Shown: piece after piece, positions 18,463-60,595 of the stretch
Layout: each line of letters opens with the position of its first letter
How positions within the stretch are numbered: the stretch's first letter is position 1
From: Antedon mediterranea
Taxonomy: Eukaryota; Echinodermata; Crinoidea; Comatulida; Antedonidae
Length of the DNA: 64,000 nt
Reading direction: 5' to 3'
NCBI RefSeq assembly: GCF_964355755.1
Contig: NC_092671.1
Coordinates: 40,251,804-40,315,803, forward strand
Position numbers and translations under genes: made by a program
Notes under the pieces: generated by a model
Told to the model about the DNA's origin: nothing
Database searches by the model: none
The model's input: only the letters and a program-made list of their open reading frames with translations

Positions 18463-21400
18463 ATGGACAGAGAGTTTGTTAAAAAGAGAAAGATGTCCAA
18501 TAATGTAAGTACAGTTAACTAGGCTATTTTAACGTTTTTGCTTGGCCACCACCACACGAGGAAATGAGGAACTCACAGACAGTACTAGGTCTAGCCTATG
18601 CTGTGTGTGTGCTATTGCTCAGCTGATAATATGGGTGACTGACGATTTCAAGGCCAGGTGTTGAAAAGTGTTAATATTCTAATATTGTGATTTTATTAAT
18701 AATTACAGTTATATTATTCGCATATATTATAGTCATACACATTTTATAATTTTATACTTCTGACATTGCATTGGCCACACTATCTGTAGGTGGAGAGGCA
18801 GGTAAGAGGCTTGGCCCCATCAACCAATCAAATTGCAGCTTCCATGTGTATTATTTACTGCATAATTAAGGATACTACCCATGACAAGATAACCCATGGA
18901 TAAATGTAATTAAATATGAAGGAATTAAAGTTATAAATTAATTTCTTCAGAAAATCAAGATTTCAATTGATGCAGGATGTTCATATTTCATTCAGTATTT
19001 ATTTTTTCCATCAATCAATCAATCAATCGTTCGATTTATATGCAAATAATTATAGTTTTTATACTCTGTGGCTTTTCAATTTTTCTGGTCGTCAAATAAT
19101 CTGTTGTCGAGACTAGAACTGTGTTTTACCAGGGTCATAAATACACAATATTCATAGAGTAGAAAGAAAGCATTGACGATTTCTATTCAAGCGAAACGAT
19201 TGTCTAGTGATCATGATATTGATAATCAAATTTTTATCTGTATCTGTCGAGAATCCTATTACTATTCAATTTGAAAAATTAACTATATGTAGCATGTCAC
19301 TTTATTTTGATAATGATAGGAGACAAGGTTGTCACGACTCAATGAATTTGAGTTAGAATCCAGGTATTATTGTGCTTGTAAATTTAGTAGGTTGAAAAGA
19401 AACAAATTGTTTATTTGGCTCACTTTCAATCAATATAAACTGAGTTTATTAAATTTTTTTTAAAGAATTTAATTGAATTCTAATATTCTTTGAATGTTAT
19501 TTTTCTAGTTTAGTAATGCATTAAGTGATGAAATATTTTACACTTAAAAAGTCTTAAAATGTTATTAATTTATTGATTTAAAATGAATTTGAACTTTGGA
19601 TGAGAACCATGTTTTAATGCATCTGAATAAAGTAATGAAACTAAATGGGCCATAAATATGAAATCACATGCTTTGCTACAAGTTCTGATTTATAAAGGTA
19701 TAAACCATTCAGTAGATATCACAGTTGTACCTACTTCTTAAAACAGAATGGTAAGTATGACATTTTGGTAGTATTATAATAATTAGAATTATTTAGATGA
19801 AATTATAGGAATTGTGTACCTTGTTTGAAGGCTTGCATGGTGGAATCAAATGTTGATATAAGTTTGCAGTACACCACGTATATTAGTTCTGAAAAGACCT
19901 GTTGAGTTTTTCGACGTTTCGATCAATATGCTTTGATCTTTGATTAAAACGTCGAGAAACTTAACAGTTCTTTTCAGAACTAATATACGTGGTGTACCGC
20001 AAACTTTATATCAACAACTGTTTGCTATCACATAAATCAGATTATAATGTTCAATTTTAAATAAGATTTCTTGTAATTTGTCAAAAAGGGTGTTACATTG
20101 ATTGCTATGTTTTTAGTAGAATTGAAGCGTACAATTGTCAATACTTTACACAATTTTCATTTAGTTTTTTCATAATTCAGACCTGCCACCTAATCTTCAA
20201 ATACTTTTCTAAATCCTGCTTACTTCCGGAATACTATATTTAATCCCTATGTTTGTTATGACACACTTGTTAATATAAAATACCTTATTTGAATTGCAAT
20301 CAATTGTGGCCCCCAATCATACCCATTAATCAATACGTAGTAATCAATATACTTATTGCTACAGCAGGGCTTACTATGTGCTACAATGATCGCATATTCA
20401 CTGTGGAACAGGACTGGATATATTGACATTTTTAGTTCATTTCCTTTGTATTTAACATTAGAATATTTCCTAATAGCTACAGTTGTATAAATATAATAAT
20501 AAGATTCAGATTCATTTATTTCATCATATTAAAATCTTTCAAACATATGAAATTTGTTTTCAGACACAAAAGTTATTTTGCAATACATCACAAATTTACC
20601 AAATTAATATTTCTCTATTCTCACTTATATTTTTCCAGGATGATGCATGTTACCTCAAAGAGAAGCTTGATAATGGTATTCCACAAATATCATTAATGTT
20701 TTCTCTGACAGAAGAAGTTGGAACTTTAGCACGTACGCTCAAGTTATTTGAGGTGAACACTTACTTACTAGTTTGTGAAAGGCATTGGAGGTGGTATAAA
20801 GAGATTCTGTTATTAGCAATGAGAACGACAACAATGTTTAATTTTTGAATGTGTTTTTATACTAATAGCAATTTTCTATTCCCTGCTGCTTCTGTATTTT
20901 ATTGTAGGCCTGTTATATTGTATATCTCGGTATCTTTATTTAAAAAAACATAAAAAACAATTCACTAAGGCAAATAAACAGCCAAAAAAGCTGGGTTGAG
21001 GATTTTTTACAAAAGGCTTCAATTAAAAACATCAAAACAATTTCATAGGAAAAAAATTAATCTACAAAAAAATTGAGGCAGGAAAAATTGAAAACGTTTA
21101 AGACGAACGTCAGAGGTGAAATCTAAAAATTCAAGAGAATCAAAAAGATGGGTGGCGAACCAATTAGGAGTTTAGAAGACTAGTTAGATATGGAAGTGGA
21201 CTAACCATTAGGAGTTTAGCAGACTAGTTAGATATGGAAGTGGACTAACCATTGGAGTTTAGCAGACTAGTTAGATATGGAAGTGGACTAACCATTAGGA
21301 GTTTAGGAGACTAGTTAGATATGGAAGTGGACTAACCATTAGGAGTTTAGCAGACTAGTTAGATATGGAAGTGGACTAACCATTAGGAGTTTAGCAGACT

Positions 21401-60595: not shown

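Follow-up and report, generated by a model that had tools for sequence, protein, structure and literature searches.

The window, by which we mean the whole 64,000-nucleotide stretch analysed (C2:40251804-40315803), lies on a 40.9-Mb contig, C2, one of the 11 large contigs (22-41 Mb) that together with 7 small ones make up the 354.4-Mb Antedon mediterranea assembly. On its forward strand it carries a PAH gene followed by a TH gene, and beyond its right edge stands a third AAAH gene, TPH, on the opposite strand; the three occupy a stretch of about 61 kb in the order PAH>, TH>, <TPH (Table 1). A Biopterin_H profile scan of the 354-Mb genome, in which 30 candidates were scored and 19 reported (weak matches may escape), placed all 19 reported matches within 47.3 kb (C2:40276292-40323637), seven in PAH and six each in TH and TPH. 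The AAAH complement detected in this genome is therefore one cluster. The initial annotation had described PAH and TH as a head-to-tail tandem pair on the same strand, and this is borne out to the base at both ends, from the PAH ATG to the TH stop; it is the word “pair” that has to be given up, since TPH is a third member. Between the last PAH exon found and the first TH exon found there are 7,141 bp, and TH and TPH are convergent neighbours with 5,075 bp from stop to stop. The two intergenic regions hold 110 open frames of at least 40 aa, and the 10 of these that were scanned matched no Pfam family. Tandem repeats of 89 bp occupy positions 62489-64000, between TH and TPH, up to the window edge.

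Going upstream from PAH, the first gene that can be recognised is an anoctamin gene on the same strand; the genome has five anoctamin loci in all. With respect to the subfamily of this gene, the 13 PDB matches comprise only ANO1, ANO6, and ANO10. At 2916-4270 there is a tandem array of 18.1 copies of a 75-bp unit (98% matching), with an encoded peptide given as 18 letters; going by a likeness seen by eye, the array looks like an exon of the host anoctamin gene amplified in place. Between anoctamin and PAH are open frames without clear family, among them one of 392 aa (13626-14804) with no Pfam match and another (12585-12899) with a weak death-effector-domain match of 22.7 bits against a cut-off of 35.9. 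Searches of the window turned up neither a tRNA nor an Rfam family at gathering score, and COX1 had no match in the assembly.

Table 1. Genes, exons, and other features at the crinoid AAAH locus, in window coordinates; those of TPH continue the window numbering past its right edge.
Feature	Position	Strand	Remarks
Anoctamin gene, 3′ part	1-4853	+	Matches begin at C2:40249534, beyond the window
PAH gene	18463-35292	+	12 exons modelled; ATG at 18463
PAH exons 1-6	18463-18504, 20639-20752, 21530-21710, 24487-24575, 24971-25038, 25486-25682	+	
PAH exons 7-12	26309-26444, 26769-26838, 29550-29606, 30215-30310, 31151-31284, 35177-35292	+	
Open frame, Penelope-like by domain pair	31611-33665	-	Weak reverse-transcriptase and GIY-YIG matches; in PAH intron 11
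TH gene	42434-60595	+	13 exons modelled; stop at 60595
TH exons, first seven modelled	42434-42673, 48063-48228, 52978-53066, 54771-54838, 55276-55326, 55438-55536, 55645-55691	+	
TH intron 68.2	55327-55437	+	Phase 2, codons counted from the P of PWFP; also in TPH, not in PAH
TH intron 101.2	55537-55644	+	Shared with TPH, absent in PAH
TH exons, last six	55835-55970, 59075-59144, 59283-59339, 59455-59550, 59979-60112, 60436-60595	+	Last exon ends in the stop
Reverse-transcriptase open frames	56520-58344	+	RVT_1, 118.2 bits at 56912-57751
TH-TPH gap, part inside the window	60596-64000		Part of the 5.1-kb gap
TPH gene	79640-65671 (C2:40317474-40331443)	-	Outside the window; extends to at least 79640
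TPH exons, first seven modelled	79640-79491, 78946-78772, 71851-71748, 71126-71059, 70445-70395, 70086-69988, 69412-69366	-	
TPH exons, last six	68963-68828, 68591-68522, 67844-67788, 67528-67433, 66879-66746, 65854-65671	-	Last exon ends in the stop

The search for exons took stretches bounded by AG and GT/GC as candidates, and the modelled exons are open throughout. All 35 introns between them (11 in PAH and 12 each in TH and TPH) are GT-AG, a uniformity that is partly by construction, which cannot be said of the continuous reading frame and the homology across introns. The models are least certain at their ends, namely the 3′ end of the last modelled PAH exon (donor GTTTTT) and the 5′ ends of the first modelled exons of TH and TPH. 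Neither a terminal PAH exon carrying a stop nor an opening exon for TH or TPH could be located. Two of the introns hold reverse-transcriptase frames. The frame in PAH intron 11 matches reverse transcriptase at 28.5 bits and GIY-YIG at 19.7 bits, both just under the cut-offs, and translations of both strands suggest that it may carry inverted copies of its ends; the stronger reverse-transcriptase frames sit in TH between exons 55835-55970 and 59075-59144.

The identity of each gene is plain from comparison with PDB chains. The PAH model scores 627 and 621 bits to PAH chains, compared with 521 to TPH2 and 446 to TH; the TH model scores 538 to the TH chain, compared with 463 (TPH2) and 452 (PAH); and the TPH model scores 543 to the TPH2 chain and 540 to TPH1, with 490 to the best PAH and 448 to the best TH. 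The catalytic domain, PF00351, is found at 572.9, 558.3, and 532.0 bits in PAH, TH, and TPH, respectively (cut-off, 22.7). The ACT domain, PF01842, reaches 29.5 bits in PAH, 17.7 in TH, and 21.1 in TPH, where the cut-off is 27, and the best PDB alignments of all three extend into the ACT region. The 2-His-1-Glu iron ligands, H285, H290, and E330 in human PAH, are represented in crinoid PAH by H280, H285, and E325, and none of the three varies among the crinoid proteins. With catalytic residues and domain intact, three working enzymes are to be expected. PAH would convert Phe to Tyr, TH Tyr to DOPA, and TPH Trp to 5-hydroxytryptophan, each presumably by BH4- and Fe(II)-dependent mono-oxygenation, as in the vertebrate counterparts. 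The first two of these conversions follow one upon the other, and BH4 is used by all three enzymes alike; the trio stands at the entry to the synthesis of tyrosine, dopamine, and serotonin.

Eight consecutive PAH exons (24487-24575 through 31151-31284) measure 89, 68, 197, 136, 70, 57, 96, and 134 nt, and TH (52978-53066 through 59979-60112) repeats the series with 51, 99, and 47 in place of 197; the initial annotation had reported exactly this, and the exon models confirm every length. The core exons of TPH have the lengths of those of TH, 51, 99, and 47 included, except for 104 in place of 89 (89 plus 15 nt, in phase). If introns are given as codon and phase counted from the P of PWFP, then from codon 29 on eight of them (29.0, 51.2, 117.1, 162.2, 186.0, 205.0, 237.0, and 281.2) are common to PAH, TH, and TPH in the same phase, and the alignment of the three proteins is free of gaps throughout the part where introns are shared. 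Taking that P as PAH residue 119, as in the 1phz chain, these positions convert to c.441, 509, 706, 842, 912, 969, 1065, and 1199, of which the first seven presumably match human PAH junctions. The last, c.1199, which corresponds to intron 281.2, is where exon 11 of human PAH ends (PMC5933811). Since TPH has the same lengths and the human c.1199 junction fits, equal exon lengths are a family trait. They are the common AAAH structure, uninformative on any special tie between PAH and TH, and the notion that the matched exons are peculiar to these two genes does not survive.

The age of the genes was approached with a tree of 15 proteins, comprising the 3 crinoid enzymes, 6 vertebrate chains taken from PDB alignments, and 6 bacterial sequences, the last being tblastn translations of which one (L028) was entered as two joined pieces; a further bacterial locus, L029, was dropped (32% identity, partial). 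The root, placed on the bacterial rows, was our choice. The crinoid genes fall in with their respective vertebrate classes, at support values of 96/96 for PAH, 100/99 for TH, and 99/98 for TPH, and the split between animals and bacteria is supported at 82/88. Crinoid TPH has a branch flagged as long, and flags for odd composition fell on two of the bacterial rows. A crinoid-only clade of all three genes is rejected (p-AU 2.5e-43), as is a clade of crinoid TH and TPH alone (p-AU 1.4e-4). From the class grouping and the rejected crinoid-only clade it follows that the duplications predate the split of the crinoid lineage from vertebrates. In the literature, the duplication that yielded TH and PAH is dated to before the divergence of invertebrates (PMC11222543), and TH and TPH are reported as bilaterian-only, apart from one sponge sequence treated as rogue (PMC10244343). 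As to the bacterial sequences, those of three gammaproteobacterial MAG contigs (L023-L025) match the crinoid query at 47-48% identity along almost its whole length, the L023 match starting at query residue 6 and those of L024 and L025 at residue 29. Under the chosen root they fall outside the animal genes, with transfer possible in either direction.

We consider it very probable that the locus is a surviving tandem AAAH cluster from the bilaterian stem, retained passively or otherwise in the crinoid lineage, a reading that rests on one genome. Tandem adjacency and matched exon structure would also be expected had PAH been copied recently within echinoderms and its copies drifted to TH- and TPH-like enzymes, and the initial annotation had left the choice between an old arrangement and a later tandem copy. 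That choice now falls to the old arrangement. The crinoid genes are closer to their human orthologues (219, 207, and 198 of 306 residues identical for PAH, TH, and TPH, respectively) than to their neighbours (170-173 of 306), the exon structure has a wider distribution, and the class grouping and the rejection of the crinoid-only clade both contradict a recent origin, which we regard as scarcely credible. An assembly artefact joining unrelated loci is likewise very unlikely: there is a single assembly to go by, and long tandem repeats do occur in the window, but the window with its flanking sequence runs for 104 kb without any N, in one of the 11 large contigs, and the scan of the assembly reported AAAH matches nowhere else.

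A different account has the genes scattered in the bilaterian ancestor and gathered together only afterwards, either through chance or because co-regulation was selected for. The succession from Phe through Tyr to DOPA and the cofactor common to all three enzymes would give such selection something to act upon, and AADC-family matches lie on the same chromosome, 1.5 Mb off. Chance is poorly served by the numbers, however, in that with loci placed uniformly the probability that two more fall within one cluster length of the first is about 1.2e-7, a crude estimate. TPH belongs to a different pathway, the matches to GTP cyclohydrolase, which serves the shared cofactor, are on C10 in 4 of 4 cases, and AADC-family matches are spread over C2, C3, and C1. 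Later assembly of the cluster is, on balance, improbable.

Given a surviving ancient cluster, the question becomes whether it also records the order in which the genes arose. Introns 68.2 and 101.2 occur in TH and TPH only, at identical positions and phases, and simple arithmetic that ignores site preference gives about 1 in 19,000 as the chance of independent insertions landing on the same pair of sites in 197 nt. Together with the adjacency of TH and TPH, this favours a history in which PAH separated first, leaving a TH/TPH ancestor. The protein tree, for its part, prefers TH+TPH at 60/41 only, and neither PAH+TPH (p 0.417) nor PAH+TH (p 0.103) is rejected; protein sequence leaves the branching order undecided. 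Published trees disagree on the relations of PAH, TH, and TPH, going by Table 2 of one study (PMC10244343), and that study, Goulty et al. 2023, itself reports TH+TPH with TBE 0.97 and UFB 75.

The two introns could nonetheless be old and have been lost by PAH, and they are unpolarised here because the bacterial outgroups have no introns; alternatively, they could have passed between TH and TPH by gene conversion, which the adjacency of the two genes permits. In either case, the cluster would be ancient and its two TH/TPH introns silent on branching order, as the survival of PAH+TPH in the sequence test also allows. Gene conversion itself was considered and left no sign. TH and TPH are identical at 35 of 63 residues in the segment around the two introns versus 173 of 306 overall, so that similarity is not raised there, and their intron sequences are unalignable, with chance-level matches only (best E 0.11). 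With the published TH+TPH topology also speaking against it, we hold the view that the introns are uninformative to be possible and rather doubtful. We lean slightly the other way, towards gene order and the two TH/TPH-only introns as a record of birth order, with the cluster as the intact AAAH set of the bilaterian stem, never dispersed in this lineage, and its separation in vertebrates, flies, and worms as secondary.

In the history proposed for the surviving cluster, a single PAH-like gene with the common exon structure would have undergone local duplication in the stem lineage of bilaterians. One of the copies would have retained the PAH role, while the other became the TH/TPH ancestor, which would have carried, or alone kept, the two further introns. 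A second duplication would then have given TH and TPH, with TPH either inverted from the outset or turned round afterwards; its orientation needs this extra step. The three genes would have stayed together in the crinoid lineage and been separated later elsewhere. Retention may be taken as passive by default, with shared regulation a possibility. What the data establish directly is the identity of the genes, their open exon models, their linkage, their orthology, and the introns they share; the age of the cluster, the sequence of duplications, and enzyme function are inferred. What the physical cluster supplies is a mechanism, local duplication, and in adjacency and shared introns it offers two characters that are independent of the protein alignment and can be used in any chromosome-level genome. 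It is also a locus at which to ask if catecholamine and serotonin genes once shared regulation.

Further out on the chromosome, an insulin-like A-chain, CCHSRCTEAFLDSFC, lies at C2:14.97 Mb (22.0 bits, just under the Pfam cut-off of 23). At C2:3.76 Mb there is the best ASCL-type bHLH, with 79% identity to the query; the nine ASCL query matches comprise five on C2, three on C1, and one on C5. In the vertebrate paralogy groups, TH goes with INS and IGF2, and PAH with TH2 and IGF1 (PMC11222543). Distances of 25 and 36 Mb separate the crinoid insulin-like and ASCL loci, respectively, from the cluster, with which they share one of eleven chromosomes, a fact that agrees weakly with an old linkage. 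The crinoid vasopressin/oxytocin-type peptide crinotocin (CFWRTCPVG; PMC9793003) has exactly one match in the genome and its reversed control none; judged by eye, a hydrophobic signal-like leader precedes the match and GKR follows it. This single marker points to a feather star as the source. AADC-family (Pyridoxal_deC) matches are at C2:38754514-38781494, with others on C3 (two groups), at C2:3.05 Mb, and on C1. A pathway cluster was considered and rejected, with GTP cyclohydrolase on C10 and the AADC family scattered over C1, C3, and C2, where the nearest matches are 1.5 Mb from the AAAH genes.

The enzymes themselves are ordinary; what is new is their arrangement and the sharing of introns. 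In the open-access full text searched, we found no report of such an AAAH cluster, and for animals other than vertebrates we saw no mention of AAAH linkage in PMC6470480, PMC8286064, or PMC8051583. An ancestral tandem arrangement may already have been predicted by Patton, Luke and Holland (1998).

Several known systems invite comparison. Hox, ParaHox, and others are retained ancestral clusters in which paralogues born by local duplication are still adjacent in some lineages; unlike these, the crinoid cluster consists of enzymes rather than transcription factors and is without sign of collinearity or shared regulation. In Drosophila all three AAAH genes map to chromosome arm 3L, and in C. elegans all three map to chromosome II. 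Human PAH has N-terminal exon lengths that differ from those of crinoid PAH. The two share the junction at the end of human exon 11 (PMC5933811). The eukaryote-like AAAH genes of bacterial MAGs (L023-L028), with best tblastn segments 47-52% identical, were retrieved as single loci with 1-kb flanks. In vertebrates the AAAH classes are split over paralogous chromosomes and stand megabases apart, with human TH and TPH1 on 11p and PAH and TPH2 on 12q, whereas the crinoid trio lies within some 61 kb. The vertebrate AAAH paralogy regions nevertheless contain the same three classes, linked with insulin-type genes (PMC11222543, PMC9010856).
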